From Verrucomicrobiales bacterium (GTDB lineage Bacteria; Verrucomicrobiota; Verrucomicrobiia; Verrucomicrobiales; V1-33): a DNA stretch of 33,347 bases. Below are positions 3,280 through 21,458 of this stretch, one piece after another. The notes beneath the pieces are model-generated. The model had not been told where the DNA came from and did not search any database. It saw nothing but the letters and a program-made list of their open reading frames with translations. Both the position numbers and the translations under genes were made by a program. Within the stretch, counting starts at the first letter, position 1; the number at the start of each line of letters is the position of its first letter. The stretch covers positions 1-33,347 of the forward strand of contig JAQGPJ010000076.1 in assembly GCA_028293125.1 (NCBI GenBank), read 5' to 3'.

Positions 3280-4620
3280 ATGGAGGTCTCCCACCTTTTC
3301 CGCACGGCCACCAACAACGGGGCGGAGCACGCGCGGAGCTATCTTCATGGACTGTTCCAGGCCCTTCCGGGCTCCAAAAACATGGAGCGCATGGAGGAGA
3401 CGGTGGCCGGGGCGGATTACGAGGGGATGCAGCATTTCATCTCCGGGTCCCCCTGGTCCGCGCGGCAGGTGATGGACCACGTGGCGATGGAGGCCTCGCG
3501 CCTGATGGAGGGCCCCATGGCCCTGGCTTATATTGATGAGACGTGCTTCTCCAAAAAGGGCACCGCCTCGGTGGGCGTGGCCCGGCAGTACAACGGACGG
3601 CTGGGGAAGGTGGACAACTGTCAGGTGGCGGTCTTCGCGGCCCTGGGCCGCGGTGACCGGGCGGTGCTGGCCGGAGCGCGGCTTTATCTGCCGGAGGAGT
3701 GGTGCCGGGATGCCGCCCGCTGCCGGCGGGTCGGCATCCCGGAGGAGAACCGCGTCTTTAAAACCAAAGCCGCCCTGGCCTTGGAGCTCATTCTCCATCT
3801 GCGCGGCATCGGGGCCGATTTTGAGGCCGCGGTGCTGGATGCCGGTTACGGCAGGGATCCCGCGCTGCTGCGGGCGCTGGATGATGCCGGGGAGACCTTC
3901 GTGGCGGATGCCCAGCGCAGCCAGCGCATCCGGACCACGGATCCCTGGCCGGCCCCGCCGCTGCCAGCCGGGGGCGGCCGCAAAGCCGCCACGCCCCGCG
4001 CGGCCACCGCTCCGGTCACCGTGGCGGACTGGACCGCGGCTCAGCCCGCGGACGGCTGGACGCTTACGGTCCTGCGCCGGGGGACACGCGGTGAGGTCCG
4101 CGTCGAATACCTTCATGAAAGGGTTTATTTATGGGATGGCAAAGAGGAGCAGCCCCGCCTGTGGCATCTCACCGCCCGGCGCGCGCTGGACAAAAACGGC
4201 CAGCCGGAGGAGATCTCATGGACTCTGAGCAACGCCCCCGCGGACACTCCCGCCGTCCGCCTGATCCACATGGCCTGCGCAAGGTATTTTATGGAGCGCG
4301 GCTTCCAGGACGCCAAAACCAGCCTCGGCCTCGCCGATTATCAGACACGCGGCTGGCTGGCATGGCATCATCACGTGGCCCTCGTCATGCTGGCCATGCT
4401 TTTCCAACTCCGGGAGCGGATGATGCACACGGAGGAGCATCCTCTGCTCAGCTGCGCGGATATCGTGGAGCTGCTGCGCCATTTCCTGCCCGCCGCGGTG
4501 GTGACTCCGGAGGACGTCCTGCGCCAGATGGAGCTCAGACACCGCAAGAGACGCGCCTCCATGGACTCCGCCGCGGGAGTCCAGGCTCCTTTGGAGGGCA
4601 TGCCCGAATTATTTAGATAA
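3280..4620 (+). CDS. IS701-family transposase (DDE endonuclease)
   Basis: A 446-residue DDE transposase that would cut and rejoin the ends of the surrounding IS. The family signature KKGTASVGVARQYNGRLGK is followed by VDNCQVAVFAALG and LYLPEEW, all typical of IS701-type enzymes. The likely catalytic acids are D86 (YIDETCF), D187 (VLDAGYG) and E339 (FMERGFQDAK). Its length is in the normal range for the family, and there is no frameshift or internal stop. The ATG at 3280 is about 180 bp inside the left end. No clear Shine-Dalgarno sequence precedes it, so the exact start is uncertain. No accessory gene is present. Confidence 0.92.
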   Translation: MEVSHLFRTATNNGAEHARSYLHGLFQALPGSKNMERMEETVAGADYEGMQHFISGSPWSARQVMDHVAMEASRLMEGPMALAYIDETCFSKKGTASVGVARQYNGRLGKVDNCQVAVFAALGRGDRAVLAGARLYLPEEWCRDAARCRRVGIPEENRVFKTKAALALELILHLRGIGADFEAAVLDAGYGRDPALLRALDDAGETFVADAQRSQRIRTTDPWPAPPLPAGGGRKAATPRAATAPVTVADWTAAQPADGWTLTVLRRGTRGEVRVEYLHERVYLWDGKEEQPRLWHLTARRALDKNGQPEEISWTLSNAPADTPAVRLIHMACARYFMERGFQDAKTSLGLADYQTRGWLAWHHHVALVMLAMLFQLRERMMHTEEHPLLSCADIVELLRHFLPAAVVTPEDVLRQMELRHRKRRASMDSAAGVQAPLEGMPELFR

Positions 4621-4934: not shown

Positions 4935-6523
4935 TCACCCCGATCCAATGACCGGGACAGATTTCGGCGCCCGGACACAATAATACCTATTATTGGGTTG
5001 ACCCCGGAGTTCGTGTGACACCCTGAAAAGGCGGTTTCGCTCCGGCCCCGTGATTTGAGCCGATTTTGTGGGATTGCCAACGACCGGCGGGCCTGAATGG
5101 CAGGCGGAGGAAAAACGGGCGGCGAAAACCACAGGGGTTCCTAAGGGGAAAAGCGGGAGTTTCAGGGCCAAAAGTTTTGCATTGGCGGTCACGTAGAGAG
5201 TTCCGTCATAAATGACAGGAGGGGCGTAACCATGCGGCATGTCATTGGTGTAACGGCTGCGGCCCGGTTTCCGGTTCGTGAACTCCACGGTGCCGACAGG
5301 GACGCATTCCGCCGCGTCGCGGTAGATCGCAAGGCCATCCTCCGTGGCCAAGTACACGAACCCTCCATGAACGAGCGGCGCGGACCAAGCGCAATTGATG
5401 GCGGCGTCCTCATTGGTTTTGTCCCAGAGCGCCTTTCCGGTTTCAGGGGAATAAGCTGTCAGGCCACTGGCGTTGTGGAGGTAAATATTGGAGCCGACCG
5501 CCGCCGGAGCCACCGGGCCGCGTGTTTTGAAGGAGGTCCAAAGACATTTCATCGTCTCTCCCTGCTCAATACCCAGACAGCAAATGGGGGAGGACACATT
5601 GCGTCCAAGTTCAGGAGACTCTCCCGAGAAGACGATGAGCCTGCGGGCGTCCAGCCGCTGCAGCTCCCAGAGCGGGCCGGCCATGCGCGTGGCGGCATCC
5701 ACCGGTAGGAATTCCCCGGCCGGCCGCACGGCGTGCAGAAGCGTTCCGTCGATGGAGAACGTCCGGACATCACCGGTGGCGGTGACGACGGCGAATCTGT
5801 CAGATCCCAGCGGCACACACGAGGGGGGCCGGTCGACAGCGCCTGAAGGCCCCAGCGTGCGGGTCCAGCGGAGCCTGCCGCCGGTCAGGTTCACCGCCGC
5901 CATCGTGATATGCACCGGTTCCCGCTCCCGGACGGGGCGGAATTGAAGGTGAAAAGAAGTGTCCCGCCGCAGCGGGAAACCACCGGCATCAGATAGCCCA
6001 TATCATCGCTGAGGCGCGGCGTCAGCCCGGTGGCCACCGGAATATCGAGGTCCCACAACCGCACTGGCCCGCCGTCCCCGGCGGACAGTTCAATGCGCTG
6101 GAGATGCCAGTCCGCCGTCAGGGAGACGAACCCGTCCTCCAGCATCACCGGCGGCCAGGTGAGGGACAGTTCAAAACCGGAAACGCGCGGACGCCGTGAA
6201 ACCGGGCCGGAAAATTTATGCACGACCTCTCCGGTGGACCGGTCGCAAAGCAAAAGACGGATGACGGGCTGCCTGAAAAGAGGCGAATACCCTTTAATGG
6301 CTCCGTCCTCCGCCTGCATGGCCACCCCATCCGGGCGGGTGTCATCCGGCGCGTGGCCGCTGTCCGAAACAAAAAGAAAACGGTCCGTCGCCGCCAGCAC
6401 CGCCGCGCATCCTCTGAAAGTCCGCTCATACAGCACTGTGAAATTGCCGCCCTCCACCTCCCCGTGCGCCGTCCACAACGGAATGAGCAGCAGGGCGGTA
6501 AGGCCGGAGAGGAAATGTTTCAT
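4935..6523 (-). pseudogene. Secreted PQQ-type beta-propeller protein, frameshifted
   Basis: Two reading frames, 6523-5891 and 5915-4935, together encode one protein of about 525 residues. It begins with a signal peptide (MKHFLSGLTALLLIPLWTAHG). Repeats typical of PQQ-like propellers follow, for example GLTAYSPETGKALW, GGFVYLATEDGLAIY and YDGTLYVTANAKLLALKLP. The frame changes near 5930-5945, where one missing base, probably in the AAT-TCC stretch, moves translation into the second frame (FRPVREREPVHITMAAVNL). The last 40 or so residues are translated through dispersed repeat copy A, so the natural C-terminus is probably nearer 5080-5140. Propellers of this kind bind quinone cofactors or act as scaffolds; no catalytic residues can be assigned. 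It is either a recent pseudogene or a sequencing error. Confidence 0.75.
4960..5037 (+). repeat. Dispersed palindromic element, copy A (type 1 right flank)
   Basis: The core is CAATAA-TACCTA-TTATTG at 4978-4995; its inner part, CAATAATA-CC-TATTATTG, is a perfect palindrome. The left flank has ATTTCGG. The right flank has GGTTGACC and then GACACCCTGAAAAGGCGG at 5017-5034. It overlaps the extended 3' end of the minus-strand PQQ reading frame. Confidence 0.85.
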
Positions 6524-6848: not shown

Positions 6849-9800
6849 TCAGGGGTTCTGGCCGACTCTCCAGATTTTCAGCTCCAGACGCTCCCCGGCG
6901 AGATTGGCAGAGACAAGATCGGAGACCGCCTCCTCCGAAGGCACCGGAGCCAGAGCCACCAGCGCGGGCTCGCGCCAAGCGGCGCCGGGAAGCAGATGGC
7001 AGGTCTGGGACGCATGGCCGGCGGGGATCACCTGCCGGGTGTTGAAATCAAGGCTCCAGACATTGATCCGCAGCTCCTCGTGGTCATCGATCACCGCCGT
7101 CACCGCCATGGAGCCCTCCCAGGCATCGATGGCGAAGGTTTTGACCCGCACCGGACCCTCCGGGCCAACCTTGCCGCCGGCCTCCGGGAATTCGCGGACG
7201 CCGCGGGCATCCGGCGTGAAGAGGCGGCGGTAGCCGTAGTCGAGCATGTTCTGCACATCACCGGCGCCATCGCCAGTTTGCTGCAATCCCACGGCGAGGG
7301 TGCGGTCCAGGCGCCGTGCGGTGGCCACGCGGGAGGTGGTGCACCAGGCGGCGGAGGGCCGGGCGGGCACATTGAGGGCCTGATCGGAGTCATACCAGAG
7401 ACCGCCGTTGCCGCCCTTCCAGGCAAGCCTGCCGGGATACAGACCCATGCTCATCATCTGCGGGAAGGGCCCGCTGCACTTCGCGTTCTTCATGATGTCC
7501 TTGCCGCACAGCGCCTCCTCCGGCTGATCCCCGTAAAGCTCCAGACTGGAGAACCGCACAAAAAGAGGATGCCGCACTCCCTCGCGCAGCAGGGTGACCA
7601 GATCCTGCGGCTTGGTCACCCAGCCGCCGGCGGGATGGCCGAAGACGCTTTCGGTCAATCCCAGTTCCGCGGCGCGCTGGTTCATCATGTTGATGAACTC
7701 ATGCGGATCCCCCTTCACTTTTTCGGCAATGTGCTGGCCGATGGCCACGGAGGAGCGGTTGCAGGAATCGTTCATCATGGCCGCCAGCAGCAGGCGCAGC
7801 GGCATGACATCCCCCGGCTGGATGAACGGCTGCTCCTTCCCCTCGCCGTCGAGTTCCTCTTTTCCTTCCGCATCGTAGGTTCCCAGCTTGCTGCCTCCTG
7901 TCGTGCCCGCCAGTTCGCTGACTGTCACCAAATCATCCAGAGTGGCGAGCCCCGCCCCGATGGCCTCCACCGCCAGCAGCAGCGTCATGGTTTTGGTGGA
8001 GCTGGCGACATGCGCGGCGTCCAGAAACTCATTATGGCCGAAGAGTCTTCCGGCACCCTTTCCGCCGGCCTCCTCGCGGGCCAGATCCGTCACCAGGCCC
8101 ATCACGCGATGGCGGACCTTGGTGAACCACTCGAGGTCGGTTTGATAGGTCAGGCCGTATTCCGCCGATCCGTGAATGATCAGCGCGGCTCCGCAATCCG
8201 TGTCGTCCCCGTTATCACGGAAGGGGTTGCCCGCCACAGTATCCTCCTCGCCGTCGGCATTGAAATCCCCACCGCCCACGAGGCAGGAGCCGAAGCGGAC
8301 CCCGGCCGCGGCCTCGCCATCCACAGCATAATTCTTGCCGCCGGTTTCCTTTTTCCCGCCATCCTGATGCACACGCAGTGCACCGGTCCCGGTCAGGCCC
8401 GCGGCGCTCCCAGGGATAAGCAGAAAGGCTCCGGCGTCCGGTTTGCCCGGGAGATCAGTGCCGGGCGCTCCGGCCATCAGGTCCCTGAATCCGTCGCCGT
8501 CGGTGTCCGCCGCCGCCACGCTCCAGCCGAAGCTGTCTCCCGCTCCGGGCTGACCGGGCAGCGCGCCGCCGGAGGGAAGAATCTTGGACTCCGTGATCAA
8601 CTGCTCATTGAACCAGGTCAGTCCCAGAAAGGTGCCATAAAGGACATGCACCGCGCCGCTGTCCAGGCCGCCGGCGTCATCACCGGGAATGCCAAGTGAC
8701 AAATCCTCCGCGCCGTCCTTGTTGAAATCCCCCGCGGTGAGGCTGTAGCCGAACATGTCCCCCGCCGAGGAGACGCCCAGAATATCCTCCCCGGCCTCAA
8801 AACCGTCCCGGCAAATGAAAACGTTATTGCCGAAACCGTTTTCCGCATGACCGTAAAGAATCTGAGCGGCGCCGGCATCCTCTTTATTGCCAATGTCCTC
8901 AAAGGGAATGCCCACCGCCAGATCAGCCTTGCCATCGCCGTTGAAGTCCCCGGAGGTCAGGGAGGCGCCGAACTTATCCCCCTCCTCCGCCTCATCCTTC
9001 ATCCCTGGACTGTCCTGATGAATATAGCGGCTGCCGGTGGTGGAAAGCGCCTTGGCCGCGCCCCACAGCACATGCACGGCACCGGCCTCAGAGCGGCCGC
9101 CGACCGTTATGTTGGGTACGGAAACCGCCAGGTCATCCCGTCCGTCCTGATTGAAATCCCCCGAAGCCAGAGACCAGGAAAAATTCCCGTTTGGAAACAA
9201 GGAATGACCCAGTGTCTCCTGCGTGACCAAGTGGTTCCCGTCCGCGGCCAGACCGAAGGGCGAACCGTAGATGACCGTGACCGATCCCGCGCCGGCGGCG
9301 TTTTTCACGGTCTCCAGCGGTGAGCCGACGGCCAGATCATCGTTGCCGTCGCCGTTGAAGTCCCCCGCCGCCAGTGAGCGTCCAAAGCCGTCACCGGCTT
9401 TCGCCTCCCCGGCCAAACCGTTTTTGCCCCGCATCCAGATCTGATCATACTCCCTGTTGGTGATGCCCTCCGCTGAGCCGTGCAGAATGTAAACCGCTCC
9501 CGCGCCGGTGTCCCGGCCGGGGGCGCCGATGGCCGCGTCATCAAAACCGTCGCCGTTAAAATCCCCGACAGCCAGAGCGCCCCCGAGAAGTTCCCCGGCC
9601 TGCAGGGCGGAGGCGAACGAATCCGTCAACGCCGGCGAGGGCAGGGCAATACCGTTGAGGCCCGGGGTTTGATCCGTCGTTTCATCCGTGATGAAGTGGG
9701 CGTCATACTTAAAGGGCACGATGCGGTCCGGGCGGCGGTCCCAGACAGCCAGCCGCAGTGATCCATCCGGCCTGCGGACGGCGGTGGTGTAGCCGCTGGA

Positions 9801-11192
9801 GGTCAGCCCGGCCACGGCATTGGCCTGCTGCGGCAGGGCAGTCAGGTTTTCGCCGCGGATGTCAAAGGCCTTGTCCAGGGCGTAACCGCCGTCCGCGGAG
9901 CCGTCATCCTCCGTCCACACGGGGTGATGCGCCAGATTTCCTTTGTCGCTGGTGAAGGTGATTTGAAACTGATTGCCGCCGAGGTGCGCGAGGCGCAGCG
10001 CGGGCTTCTCCGCCAAACCGGTTGTCAGCAGGTTCCCGGAATCCTTCAATCCCGTGAGCGCACCGGTGACGGCGTTCACCTGCCAGGTGATGAGCCGGAC
10101 CGACCTGGCGCCGCCGCCGGCGGGCTTTGTCACAACCGCGGTGACAACCTGATAGTGGGTGATGCCGTCGGCCCTTGTTGAAAAGGCGCGGTGCGCCATG
10201 TCATACTCCAGCACCTCAACCCCGGCATTGCTTCCGTAGCCGATGGATTTGTGGTGGATAAAGGTGCCGGTGCCGGGGGCAAGGGCGCGGCTGGAAAGCC
10301 ACAGGTCCCCGTTGGCCCGGATGCGGCCGGTGACGAATTTCGGCGCTCCGCTCTGGGCGGCGGGCGCCAGCGGATGCACCCGCGGGTGATGTCCCTCAAT
10401 GGGCGGCGTGGTGAAAAGCGCCACCGGGTCCGCCCCCGCCGCGGCGCGCCAGTTGGTCAGTTGATGCCACCCTCCGGTGCCTGCCGCGGTCACCAGCTCC
10501 GCTCCCGGTCCGGCGGCGGCATTGCCGGAGCGGATAAAGGCCACATCCACTTCACGCAGGTCCGCCTGCGGGCGGGGGTTTCTGCCGGGATCATGGGCAT
10601 CGGCCCAGGCGCGGGCTGTTTCCGCATCCCCCGGACCCGCAGGACCTGCGGAGTTGGCGGTGGCGGGCGACGTCCCGATCACCGCCTCCTCAAAATCCGT
10701 CAGGCCGTCCTGGTCCTGGTCCCTGTCGGAGACATTCAGACGGTAGAACCCGCGCGTGGCCTGAGTGTCCATCGGAAGATCAATGGTGACCGGTCCGCCG
10801 GTCTCCCCGTTGATCGGATCGCCAAGATTCCTCCAGGAGCCGCGGGTGAGGTCCGGGGAAACCTGAAATTGATAGAGCTTGCCCGGCAGCGCGTCAAAAC
10901 CGGTGCGCAGCATCCTGCGGCCGTCCTCTCCGGTGACAGGCTCCAGCGTCCGCAGATCCAAGCGGGAGACCGGCTCCCAGGCGCTGGTGCCGGCGGCCTC
11001 CTCAACGCGGTCGGACACGCCGTCACCGTCGGAGTCCTCATCCCCGTTGGCGCTTGGGATGCCGTGGAAAACCTGCCAGATGTCCGAATGGCCGTCGCCG
11101 TCCCGGTCCAGAAAGGTTTGGGCCGGTAGAACCGGAGGGAAAAGCGCAGCCAGAGCGGCGACGGTGCGGAGGGCGGGAGTGACGTGGTTCAT
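6849..11192 (-). CDS. Secreted FG-GAP propeller protein fused to a D-Ala-D-Ala carboxypeptidase (S11) domain
   Basis: A 1,447-residue exported protein starting at MNHVTPALRT (ATG at 11192), the first start followed directly by a signal peptide. The frame is open further upstream, but that part looks non-coding. Three thrombospondin-3-like calcium motifs sit near the N-terminus (DRDGDGHSD, DEDSDGDGVSD, DRDQDQDGLTD). About residues 540-980 hold seven FG-GAP repeats with calcium loops (GDFNGDGFDD, GDFNGDGNDD, GDFNQDGRDD, GDFNGDGKAD, GDFNKDGAED, ADTDGDGFRD, GDFNADGEED), enough for one seven-bladed integrin-like propeller. About residues 1020-1330 form a serine peptidase of the penicillin-binding type, with SSTK near 1062, SCN near 1143 and KGG near 1261 matching SxxK, SxN and KTG/KGG. 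Such enzymes trim the peptidoglycan stem peptide. The propeller could anchor the enzyme at the cell surface; that is inference. Confidence 0.9.
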   Translation of the reverse strand: MNHVTPALRTVAALAALFPPVLPAQTFLDRDGDGHSDIWQVFHGIPSANGDEDSDGDGVSDRVEEAAGTSAWEPVSRLDLRTLEPVTGEDGRRMLRTGFDALPGKLYQFQVSPDLTRGSWRNLGDPINGETGGPVTIDLPMDTQATRGFYRLNVSDRDQDQDGLTDFEEAVIGTSPATANSAGPAGPGDAETARAWADAHDPGRNPRPQADLREVDVAFIRSGNAAAGPGAELVTAAGTGGWHQLTNWRAAAGADPVALFTTPPIEGHHPRVHPLAPAAQSGAPKFVTGRIRANGDLWLSSRALAPGTGTFIHHKSIGYGSNAGVEVLEYDMAHRAFSTRADGITHYQVVTAVVTKPAGGGARSVRLITWQVNAVTGALTGLKDSGNLLTTGLAEKPALRLAHLGGNQFQITFTSDKGNLAHHPVWTEDDGSADGGYALDKAFDIRGENLTALPQQANAVAGLTSSGYTTAVRRPDGSLRLAVWDRRPDRIVPFKYDAHFITDETTDQTPGLNGIALPSPALTDSFASALQAGELLGGALAVGDFNGDGFDDAAIGAPGRDTGAGAVYILHGSAEGITNREYDQIWMRGKNGLAGEAKAGDGFGRSLAAGDFNGDGNDDLAVGSPLETVKNAAGAGSVTVIYGSPFGLAADGNHLVTQETLGHSLFPNGNFSWSLASGDFNQDGRDDLAVSVPNITVGGRSEAGAVHVLWGAAKALSTTGSRYIHQDSPGMKDEAEEGDKFGASLTSGDFNGDGKADLAVGIPFEDIGNKEDAGAAQILYGHAENGFGNNVFICRDGFEAGEDILGVSSAGDMFGYSLTAGDFNKDGAEDLSLGIPGDDAGGLDSGAVHVLYGTFLGLTWFNEQLITESKILPSGGALPGQPGAGDSFGWSVAAADTDGDGFRDLMAGAPGTDLPGKPDAGAFLLIPGSAAGLTGTGALRVHQDGGKKETGGKNYAVDGEAAAGVRFGSCLVGGGDFNADGEEDTVAGNPFRDNGDDTDCGAALIIHGSAEYGLTYQTDLEWFTKVRHRVMGLVTDLAREEAGGKGAGRLFGHNEFLDAAHVASSTKTMTLLLAVEAIGAGLATLDDLVTVSELAGTTGGSKLGTYDAEGKEELDGEGKEQPFIQPGDVMPLRLLLAAMMNDSCNRSSVAIGQHIAEKVKGDPHEFINMMNQRAAELGLTESVFGHPAGGWVTKPQDLVTLLREGVRHPLFVRFSSLELYGDQPEEALCGKDIMKNAKCSGPFPQMMSMGLYPGRLAWKGGNGGLWYDSDQALNVPARPSAAWCTTSRVATARRLDRTLAVGLQQTGDGAGDVQNMLDYGYRRLFTPDARGVREFPEAGGKVGPEGPVRVKTFAIDAWEGSMAVTAVIDDHEELRINVWSLDFNTRQVIPAGHASQTCHLLPGAAWREPALVALAPVPSEEAVSDLVSANLAGERLELKIWRVGQNP

Positions 11193-11948
11193 GGCGGTCG
11201 GAGGCTTGTGGGAAACGCATCCTGCGGGGGTTGCCGCAAGGGGGGCGCAAAGGGATAAGAGGTGGTTTGGAATGAATGAGTTATTAGGCGGCGGCGGGCC
11301 GGATGATGTTGGTCCAGGCACCGGACCGGAGGCATACGCATCTTGCACGCCATCTTGATGGGTTCAGACGCAAGTATTTGACTATCAACATTATATAATT
11401 GGGGATTATTTAAACTCTCTGATTTTGTCCTGTTTGGCGGACGGTGATCTGCGGTTAGTGGAGCCTTGGCTCCATTTTATGGAGCAGTCACGCTATCAGG
11501 AAGGACGGGATAGCTTCGCGTCAGGTGTTTTGGGCGCTTTCCGGATATTTTGTTCCGCCTCCTCTCCGCCAAAGCTTATGCTGAAAATTGAGGTGGGCTC
11601 GAATCACCGTCTTCATGTCCCACCGCCTGCCCCGGAAGCTCATCATCTCCTCGGCTCCACCCTGCAGAGCAGGGCCAAATACTACGGCCCCTTTTTGGGG
11701 AGGGGGGCCGTGCGCGTGAATCTCAAAATCTCGTTTTCGGGGATCTCCCTCATCTGGAAACCGCTTACCTCATGCGCTGAAAGGATTCACAGTAAAGGTC
11801 AAACTCCAGACATTCGCATCCCGCCCCCGCCCTCCGCGAAAATCCCCCAAACCTGCGGGACCTCCCCGGACTTGGTGGGCGTTTACATTACTGAATCCCG
11901 AGACTCTTTCACTTCCCCCTGGCATCATCAACGCTGCCACATGCCTTT
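11193..11948. other. Intergenic region, 756 bp, no supported gene
   Basis: The region is the upstream side of both the FG-GAP gene (minus) and the small membrane protein (plus), so it should hold two divergent promoters. An AT-rich patch at 11375-11425 could serve one of them, but I cannot assign -35/-10 boxes. A G/C hairpin (GGCCCC-TTTTTGGGGAGG-GGGGCC) lies at about 11686-11709. Open frames here have no recognisable product. Confidence 0.5.
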
Positions 11949-18797: not shown

Positions 18798-21458
18798 ATG
18801 AATGCTTTTCCGGAAAGTCCAAAAACTGGCAAAGGCAGCGTCAGTGCCAATTTGATGAGGCTGATTGCCCTGTTCGGCGTGCTTTCCGTATTCAGCATGC
18901 CTGCGGCGGGAACTCCTTTGGGAATTGCAGATGTTGAAATTGCGCCTCCGGTTGCCGCGCAGCGTGCAGATTCCAATATCAGAGCCCAGATAGCCTCCTC
19001 GTCCAGGGGGTGGCTCGTGGTCTGGGAAAACAGAGGTCTCAGGGGAGGGGGACAGTCGGAGATTCAGGGCATGTTCGTAAACAAAAATGGCACCCCGGGC
19101 AGCCCTTTCTCCTTCTCCCTGACCGGGCCAAAGGACTACCCGGTCCGTTGTGAGGAAGCTGCGGTCACCGCAGCCGGGGATGGCTTTGTGATCGCATGGA
19201 CGGAGATAAACACAGCCGGGGAAACCTACCATGCGAGGATTGCGGCATGCACACTCAATCCTGAAGGAAAAATGGATCGAAGCCCCCGGTATATCACGGA
19301 GGAGGCCACTTTGAGCCGGTTTCCACGGGTTGCCTCCTCGGGATCGCTGATTCTTGTCTCCTGGTTGAACGATATCCAGCTGGACCACACCTTGGAGATA
19401 CAGGGAAGGATGCTCAGCCATGATCTGGCACCACTGGGAGGGCCATACAACATCTCCCCACCGGGAGTCGCCCAGCAGCAGGGGAATCTGGTTTTTTCCG
19501 GCAACTCATTTCTCAGCACCTGGATCGCCGCTCCCGCCGTGGGAGGAGCCAGTTCCGCCCAAGGGGCCGTCCTGAGTCCGACCGGTGTGGTTGAAAAGTA
19601 CATTTCAATTTCTGCGGCTGGAAGCGAGAACTACCTGTCCACGGTCCCCCTGGGTTCCGGGTTTTTGGCCGTCTGGCATGATTTTTCCCTGTCATTCGGC
19701 ACCGGAGCCGGAGTTTTCGGAGCCATCAAAGCGGCACGGATCACCGGCGACGGCCAGGTTCTCGATAACCCGCCCCTGACAGTGCGCCGGAATGATAACA
19801 ATGATCCCGTTGTTTTTACAAGGGGATCAGGAAATTTCTCCCACGCGCTCATCAGCTGGACTGAATCCCATAAGGAAAGCGCACAGTCACATCTTGAGAC
19901 CCGGATCGTGCGCCCTGACGGATCCATGACGGAACCCGCGGGAGATCCCGTTCTGGAGGAGGATTTTCAAATTTATGATGCGCAATCCAGCCCCTGTCCG
20001 GAAGCATGGCTTCTGGCATACAGCCGCCCCCTCCCGGTTCCGTTCAATGGACAATGGATTTCGGGTATGTTCGTGCGCCGCCTGAATGCGGATGGGGGCC
20101 CCTCGGGTGCTGAGACGCCTGTCAGTTTGTCAAGCAACCGGATGCAGGCGCTGGCGCTTTCGGAACTGAAGGACGGTTTTGTTGCGGTTTGGCAGGACGA
20201 CCGGAATGAACGGGATAACGAATGGGATATTTACGCCCGGCGGTTCAAAAAAGACGGAACGCCCTTGGACGCCGTTCCGATACTGGTTGGCGGGGGCGTG
20301 GAGGATCAGGGTTCCCCGTCGGTGGCGGGCCTTGATGATGTCTGGGCAGTGGCATGGAGGACCGATCTGCCAGGGCGAAGCCGGATAGAGGCCAAGGTCA
20401 TGCGCGGCGGGACGGCCGTCTCCGAAACTAAAATTCTGGATGAGGGTGCGGACAATCTTCCGAAGGCTCCTGCAATCGCGGCGGGAGCAAATGGTTTTTT
20501 GGCGGTTTGGGTGGGCCGGGCCAATGATCCAGTGGAAGACCCTTTTCATGCCATCAGGGGCACGCATTTATCTCCGGAGGGCAATGCCGGGACCCCCGGC
20601 GGCTTTGTTGTCAGCCTGAAAGCGGGCCGGCATCAGCAGGCTCCGGCGGTCGCAGGCAATTCCTCGGGTTATTATGCGGCATGGACAAGCAATGCGGGCG
20701 GCAACGGGAGTGCCGCGGCTCTGCTGGGCAGGCTCCTACCTGGCCAACCAGCGCAGCCACTAGGGAGCGCGATATCTGTCATTTCCAATTCCGACACCCC
20801 AAGGGGAGTGGACATCGCCGCTCATGACCCGAATTATTTGGTGGTATGGCGCGCGGGTCATGATGTGGACCGGATTGAGGGGGTGAGAATCAGTTCCGAG
20901 GGCGGGATACTCCGCACTCCGGTGCTGTTGGCCGATCCCGCCAGCTTCGGGCCCTTGCTGAAAGAGCCTGCCGTGGCCCCGTCAGGCGATGGGTGGGTGC
21001 TTGGTTGGCTGACGGACCGCCGGCTGTGCGGGAGGCGGATTTCGGATGATGAGGCCCTGACGGCGCATCCGGTGTTTGAGCCGCATCCGCCGGTTGCCCC
21101 TTTCACTTGGGATTTGGACACGCTATCCTGCGCCGTTCTCGGGGGCAGAATACTTTTCGGCGTTGTGGAGGAGGGAGTTCACCGCGCATCCGCTGTTTTG
21201 ACCGTGCCGGGGGAGAAGGTTCCATCTCTGAGAATCGCGCTCCTGCTTGGATCATGGGTGCATGTGACGGTGGATCCAAGCCCCTACTTCCCGATAAATC
21301 CGCAAAAGCTGGAAATGAGCGCGACGGGAACGGATTGGCGCCCTGTGGCTTCACTGCCCAAGGGAAGTTACTGGCTGAGCCCGGAGGGGGGGATTCTGGT
21401 CAAAGCCGAGGTGCCATCCCTGTTTTTCCGACTGCGTGCCAGTCTGGACCAGGAATGA
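18798..21458 (+). CDS. Large secreted protein with propeller-like W-x-D-x-R repeats
   Basis: An 886-residue exported protein. The N-terminus is polar for about 18 residues, then hydrophobic (LMRLIALFGVLSVFSMPAAG), which fits a signal peptide with a cut near AAGTP. The rest consists of about a dozen degenerate repeats of 50-70 residues built around G-[FW]-[LV]-[AV]-x-W, such as GFVIAWTEIN, GFLAVWHDF, GFVAVWQDDRNERDNEWD and GFLAVWVGRAND. Each is followed by strands resembling IYARRFKKDGTPL. This pattern is known from secreted beta-propeller proteins of myxobacteria and PVC bacteria; no enzyme active site is visible. The ATG at 18798 has GGAG 12 bases upstream. The C-terminus (VPSLFFRLRA) resembles ends seen on verrucomicrobial secreted proteins. 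Binding or adhesion is a guess. Confidence 0.85.
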   Translation: MNAFPESPKTGKGSVSANLMRLIALFGVLSVFSMPAAGTPLGIADVEIAPPVAAQRADSNIRAQIASSSRGWLVVWENRGLRGGGQSEIQGMFVNKNGTPGSPFSFSLTGPKDYPVRCEEAAVTAAGDGFVIAWTEINTAGETYHARIAACTLNPEGKMDRSPRYITEEATLSRFPRVASSGSLILVSWLNDIQLDHTLEIQGRMLSHDLAPLGGPYNISPPGVAQQQGNLVFSGNSFLSTWIAAPAVGGASSAQGAVLSPTGVVEKYISISAAGSENYLSTVPLGSGFLAVWHDFSLSFGTGAGVFGAIKAARITGDGQVLDNPPLTVRRNDNNDPVVFTRGSGNFSHALISWTESHKESAQSHLETRIVRPDGSMTEPAGDPVLEEDFQIYDAQSSPCPEAWLLAYSRPLPVPFNGQWISGMFVRRLNADGGPSGAETPVSLSSNRMQALALSELKDGFVAVWQDDRNERDNEWDIYARRFKKDGTPLDAVPILVGGGVEDQGSPSVAGLDDVWAVAWRTDLPGRSRIEAKVMRGGTAVSETKILDEGADNLPKAPAIAAGANGFLAVWVGRANDPVEDPFHAIRGTHLSPEGNAGTPGGFVVSLKAGRHQQAPAVAGNSSGYYAAWTSNAGGNGSAAALLGRLLPGQPAQPLGSAISVISNSDTPRGVDIAAHDPNYLVVWRAGHDVDRIEGVRISSEGGILRTPVLLADPASFGPLLKEPAVAPSGDGWVLGWLTDRRLCGRRISDDEALTAHPVFEPHPPVAPFTWDLDTLSCAVLGGRILFGVVEEGVHRASAVLTVPGEKVPSLRIALLLGSWVHVTVDPSPYFPINPQKLEMSATGTDWRPVASLPKGSYWLSPEGGILVKAEVPSLFFRLRASLDQE

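Follow-up and report, generated by a model that had tools for sequence, protein, structure and literature searches.

The window, as we refer here to the whole stretch of 33,347 nucleotides analysed, is a 33-kb contig from a verrucomicrobial genome of 6.48 Mb assembled in 120 contigs. An open frame on its minus strand spans positions 6849-11348, within which the ATG at 11192 was taken as the start codon because homologues begin at an equivalent methionine. The resulting gene (6849-11192, stop codon at 6849-6851) encodes a protein of 1447 amino acids to which homologues align end to end, and its coordinates agree with those of an initial annotation of this DNA. Residues are numbered below from the methionine encoded by this ATG. 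The next gene downstream on the same strand (4935-6523, minus strand) codes for a PQQ_2-type propeller and is split, as if frameshifted, into two overlapping frames, the first of 210 amino acids with a signal-like start and the second of 326 amino acids with the Pfam match. A Kup-type potassium transporter gene is found upstream, a DDE_5 transposase of 446 amino acids is encoded nearby on the plus strand (3280-4620), and a further plus-strand gene (18798-21458) codes for a protein of 886 amino acids that begins with a signal-like stretch, gave no match in Pfam and appears repetitive by eye.

A Pfam search of the 1447-residue protein returned FG-GAP repeats (E 1.6e-55), Peptidase_S11 (8e-14) and a sub-threshold hit to TSP3_bac. 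The first 24 residues (MNHVTPALRTVAALAALFPPVLPA; 11121-11192, minus strand, as are all features of the gene described below) resemble a signal peptide, and a similar hydrophobic start is present in the aligned fusion homologues; read by eye, this N terminus indicates that the protein is probably exported or secreted. A cassette follows (residues 25-190, 10623-11120), in which the thrombospondin-3-like motifs originally described take the form of three DxDxDG loops at residues 29, 51 and 158, apart from the loops of the FG-GAP region. Its TSP3_bac (PF18884) score of 18.6 bits falls below the cut-off of 25, which the homologue from Roseibacillus persicicus exceeds (26.1 bits). Between the cassette and the FG-GAP repeats lies a beta-repeat domain (residues 213-515, 9648-10556) conserved in all four complete proteins of this build, for which neither a Pfam match nor a credible sequence relative in the PDB was found. 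It occurs as a single copy per genome, confined to the fusion protein, and is predicted to be all-beta, with block pLDDT values of 56-85 across residues 274-433 in a first AF2 model. At the other end, the S11 domain had been regarded as C-terminal, but it is succeeded by a tail of about 110 residues (1335-1447, 6852-7190) conserved in five family members. The layout is thus more than a propeller joined to an enzyme, since both the N-terminal beta-repeat domain and the C-terminal beta tail are also conserved.

The FG-GAP region comprises residues 526-1012 (8157-9617) and matches PF01839 with 184.7 bits; six stretches individually pass the Pfam cut-off in the window protein, and seven do so in each of the three complete homologues. 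Seven DxDxDG loops were located within it, whose sequences fit the consensus of putative calcium-binding loops: DFNGDGFDD at residue 544 (9537-9563), DFNGDGNDD at 611 (9336-9362), DFNQDGRDD at 679 (9132-9158), DFNGDGKAD at 749 (8922-8948), DFNKDGAED at 822 (8703-8729), DTDGDGFRD at 896 (8481-8507) and DFNADGEED at 976 (8241-8267). The first AF2 model, covering residues 244-1443 and built from five sequences, had a mean pLDDT of 53; it was good across most of the FG-GAP region and unusable in the S11 part. In this model the propeller matched that of integrin alpha-V (VIA-align Z 34.3, rmsd 2.7, 384 residues aligned) and that of integrin alpha-5 (Foldseek TMt 0.71). The region is accordingly predicted to form one end-to-end, seven-bladed propeller of the integrin alpha type, and the earlier count of exactly seven calcium-loop repeats, enough for a single propeller of this type, was borne out.

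The S11-fold (penicillin-binding-protein-like) domain, residues 1017-1331 (7200-8144), scored 52.1 bits against Peptidase_S11 (PF00768), above the cut-off of 27.6, and matched dacB (3mfd) at 1.1e-16 in a sequence profile search. Because this part was unusable in the first model, residues 1010-1447 were folded separately from 35 sequences, stand-alone S11 proteins among them, which gave block pLDDT values of 55-98, mostly above 80, in the S11 part. The closest structure was the Streptomyces K15 DD-transpeptidase (1es5; Z 28.6, rmsd 2.2 A, 240 residues aligned), and further matches included Bacillus subtilis DacB and PBP5/6, the whole range being Z 25-28.6. Both folds are hence supported, as the AF2 models match integrin and penicillin-binding-protein structures and the sequence profile search agrees for S11. 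These results confirm that a seven-bladed integrin-type propeller and a domain of the S11/penicillin-binding-protein fold, both already named in the initial annotation, are joined in one protein; the lack of an S11 fold in a structure prediction, which would have refuted that annotation, did not materialise.

Complete fusion proteins of the same build were identified in Puniceicoccaceae K14, Verrucomicrobiae DG1235 and Roseibacillus persicicus, with end-to-end identities to the window protein of 46%, 46% and 38%, respectively; within the S11 domain, identity was 54% for K14 and DG1235 and 44% for Roseibacillus. In the last species, recovered by the phylum search, the S11 domain lies inside a frame of 1477 residues. 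A fifth member is truncated at a contig end; of its S11 domain it retains the half that contains KGG, followed by the tail. Chance read-through or misassembly, which the 33-kb contig, the 120-contig assembly and the nearby transposase gene might have brought to mind, is excluded by these homologues, which come from three independent genomes and align end to end with identities of 38-46%, and the low dN/dS between K14 and DG1235 likewise argues against a decaying gene; we regard an artefactual or degenerating frame as extremely improbable.

The fusion architecture is rare, yet not confined to the genome of the window. It was found in one other genome among 387 in a phylum-level search, in one other among 384 in a class-level search and in two of 260 genomes in a search of the Roseibacillus family, these samples overlapping. 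Of 13 genomes searched from the window's own family, the remaining 12 lacked it. A DNA-pattern scan of a collection of 84,980 species, which relies on two short peptide patterns and so would miss distant cases, returned three loci and brought in the K14 and DG1235 proteins. In a survey of S11 proteins across the order (113 genomes), the matches listed, which stopped short of weak ones such as the fusion protein, were all stand-alone frames with lengths of 231-536 amino acids, and the longest other frame in the list of relatives from the whole phylum, of 831 amino acids, shows an S11 domain with KTG in the part compared. The possibility of a widespread, known architecture, raised at the outset, is not supported, given its rarity in the phylum-, class- and family-level samples searched. 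A search for plasmid carriage yielded solely 30-35% matches to ordinary S11 proteins, and PADLOC returned no match to a defence system. The RpoB of the window's organism is closest to that of Roseibacillus (75.7% identity, against 68-69% for K14 and DG1235), which conflicts with the relatedness of the fusion proteins. The comparison, based on four sequences only, therefore suggests that the fusion gene was transferred between verrucomicrobial orders, or else that an old duplication was followed by loss. In Roseibacillus (locus L032, 7274-14924), genes for an ECF sigma factor, a FecR protein, the fusion protein and a TSP3 protein follow one another closely in a single orientation, with gaps of about 6 bp both between FecR and the fusion gene and between the latter and the TSP3 protein gene.

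The catalytic motifs SSTK, SCN and KGG had been reported after the propeller and are indeed present at residues 1064, 1143 and 1259. The first, SSTK 1064-1067 (7992-8003), with Ser1064 as the putative nucleophile, aligns with the SxxK of 31 stand-alone S11 proteins and is replaced by SVTK or SCTK in the fusion homologues. The second, SCN 1143-1145 (7758-7766), aligns with SAN, SCN or SGN of the stand-alone proteins; SCN is invariant across the four complete members of the fusion family, and canonical S11 enzymes can have it too. The third, KGG 1259-1261 (7410-7418), occupies the position of the S11 KTG. It departs from the S11 consensus, the alignment giving KGGN in each of the five fusion proteins and KTG in every one of the 31 stand-alone relatives. 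The fusion protein thus has the fold, the SxxK and the SxN of peptidase family S11 and lacks the K[T/S]G that is the family's third motif. The spacing of the motifs, which had been considered proper, is so only in part: the 116 residues between SxN and KxG fall inside the range of 105-121 of the stand-alone S11 proteins compared, whereas the 79 residues between SxxK and SxN exceed their 55-64 because of an insertion before SxN. About 19 additional residues follow KGG relative to the stand-alone proteins in the alignment, and an extra loop geometry is predicted there at the active site. The residue after SxN is also changed, being Arg in all four complete fusion proteins and Asp in 31 of 31 stand-alone ones. 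The catalytic Ser/Lys/Ser/Asn/Lys set is retained, and in the third motif both Lys and Gly are intact. Judging from the alignments, the changes at the presumed active site are shared across the fusion proteins and are not random. Between K14 and DG1235 the S11 domain has a dN of 0.032 and a dS of 0.416 (~0.42), and since this is the lowest dN of all domains (0.058-0.082 in the others), it is strongly constrained and not decaying.

The label of D-Ala-D-Ala carboxypeptidase is not secured by these data, because every one of the five fusion proteins has an altered third catalytic motif. A conventional DD-carboxypeptidase or DD-endopeptidase of the low-molecular-mass penicillin-binding-protein type, carrying a propeller, tolerating KGG and still trimming peptidoglycan, would account for the Pfam score above the cut-off, the close fold matches to the K15 DD-transpeptidase, dacB and PBP5/6 and the third motif's retained Lys and Gly. 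Such low-molecular-mass proteins (PBP5/6, B. subtilis DacB, Streptomyces K15) share with the fusion protein the fold, SxxK, SxN and the third-motif Lys and Gly. The fusion protein differs from them in its KGG (0 of 31 stand-alone relatives), in the 79-residue spacing and the loop after KGG, i.e. two insertions close to the active site, and in being a 1447-residue, probably secreted protein with no Pfam match to PBP5_C at E 1 after the S11 domain, where the distinct conserved beta tail is found instead. Two other S11 proteins with KTG in the same genome could also serve the ordinary role, and we therefore consider a conventional trimming enzyme rather doubtful. We consider a role in resistance, as a serine beta-lactamase or a related enzyme, very unlikely. 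The similarity to Beta-lactamase2 (PF13354) is weak (14 bits against a cut-off of 22, E 0.032 for the window protein; E 1.9e-4 for the Roseibacillus homologue) and far exceeded by the S11 scores, and KGG is devoid of the hydroxyl important for the turnover of beta-lactams by class A enzymes (PMC6478378).

We give somewhat better than even credence to an active SxxK acyl-enzyme hydrolase of altered specificity, displayed on an exported, calcium-stiffened multidomain scaffold. In the proposed mechanism, Ser1064 would attack an amide or ester carbonyl to form an acyl-enzyme, with the assistance of Lys1067, Ser1143 and Lys1259, and the lost threonine hydroxyl of KTG together with the new loop would shift specificity away from free-ended D-Ala-D-Ala. 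Candidate substrates at the cell surface would be peptides, either cross-linked or amidated, or else esters, while the propeller and the beta tail might anchor the enzyme to a surface ligand or wall polymer. A precedent for such a change is offered by the Cpe proteins, in which KAG or KGG replaces KTG, KGG being found in non-producers (PMC6478378). The Cpe of Streptomyces clavuligerus (KAG) has esterase activity and no detectable beta-lactamase activity, and serine beta-lactamases use the Ser/Thr of the KTG-type motif to contact the carboxylate of the substrate (PMC6478378). Like the fusion protein, S. clavuligerus Cpe resembles penicillin-recognising enzymes, has replaced KTG and has kept SxxK; unlike it, Cpe is a small, two-domain, class A beta-lactamase-like protein without a propeller (PMC6478378). 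From this comparison we infer that a free D-Ala carboxylate would not be the primary recognition target of the hydrolase, an argument by analogy only, because Cpe is a relative of class A beta-lactamases and not of S11. None of the neighbours of the homologues points to peptidoglycan, and as genomic neighbours differ among homologues, context names no substrate.

The altered third motif would also fit a domain that no longer catalyses but binds or senses cell-wall peptides or esters, within a surface adhesin or signalling protein, and the Roseibacillus fusion gene comes after genes for an ECF sigma factor and FecR, an arrangement linked to envelope signalling. Neither a sigma factor nor FecR was recognised, however, among the scanned neighbours in the window, K14 and DG1235, both SxxK and SxN are retained in the four complete proteins, and S11 is the most constrained domain between K14 and DG1235; a binding or sensing module thus seems distinctly improbable. 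Under the favoured reading of an active hydrolase, the conserved and rare build makes an enzyme of the penicillin-binding fold part of a large, probably secreted scaffold, the absence of the KTG threonine throughout the fusion family would provide a directly testable case of substrate change in S11, and the propeller predicts a calcium-dependent surface partner. The Verrucomicrobia are a phylum with a long-debated cell wall.

Parts of this architecture have precedents. The partner domains of S11 enzymes compiled in a review comprise SPOR, CWB1, LysM, SLH and SH3, propellers being absent (PMC6403190). Among bacterial integrin-type FG-GAP propellers, Chouhan et al. 2011 report 229 seven-repeat proteins, which have in common with the window protein seven repeats that each carry a DxDxDG loop and a single integrin-like propeller; the downstream hydrolase-fold domain sets the fusion apart, and the text of the paper mentions no enzyme partner of the S11 kind (PMC3192720). 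A trypsin-FG-GAP fusion of Streptomyces avermitilis (NP_825221.1) also combines a bacterial serine-hydrolase domain with FG-GAP repeats, but its protease fold is unrelated and its fewer repeats (three or four) follow the enzyme (PMC2605481). The 2008 survey of serine protease architectures, with S11 as such outside its scope, records FG-GAP with trypsin only (PMC2605481). No fusion of FG-GAP repeats with a D-Ala-D-Ala carboxypeptidase or serine hydrolase of this kind was found described in the mainly open-access literature searched, in keeping with the view first taken of the architecture as undescribed. Bacterial FG-GAP propellers and S11 enzymes are thus individually well known, and it is their join for which no description was found. 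In eukaryotes, GPI-specific phospholipase D is a secreted enzyme with a seven-bladed FG-GAP propeller, its zinc-dependent catalytic domain being different from that of the fusion protein.

The beta-repeat domain and the beta tail might belong together. The tail consists of two groups of about four strands, of modest pLDDT in the second AF2 model, and a pattern such as LVTA..G..L.L..W recurs in both regions. By ungapped score, with repeats picked beforehand by eye, the tail unit at 1362 was the best-scoring one outside the N-terminal domain in two of three proteins (the window protein and Roseibacillus), although in K14 it scored lower, at rank 9 overall, and the second tail unit scored far lower than the first. 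In a profile built from the N-terminal repeats the C-terminal ones did not rise above shuffles, and hhalign aligned the two sets at E 0.47. A second propeller closed by the N-terminal domain and the tail is accordingly possible, yet unproven. More speculatively, the family may form a novel class among secreted enzymes of the penicillin-binding fold, in which about five blade-like N-terminal units and two from the tail close this second propeller, the integrin-type propeller and the KGG hydrolase being inserted between its blades, with a substrate other than free D-Ala-D-Ala; we hold this to be unlikely. Among giant DUF1800-type proteins (loci L045, L046, L047 and L049), several of which carry PA14, CHRD and Ig-like domains, those of the window's family also begin with a stretch resembling the cassette at residues 25-190.
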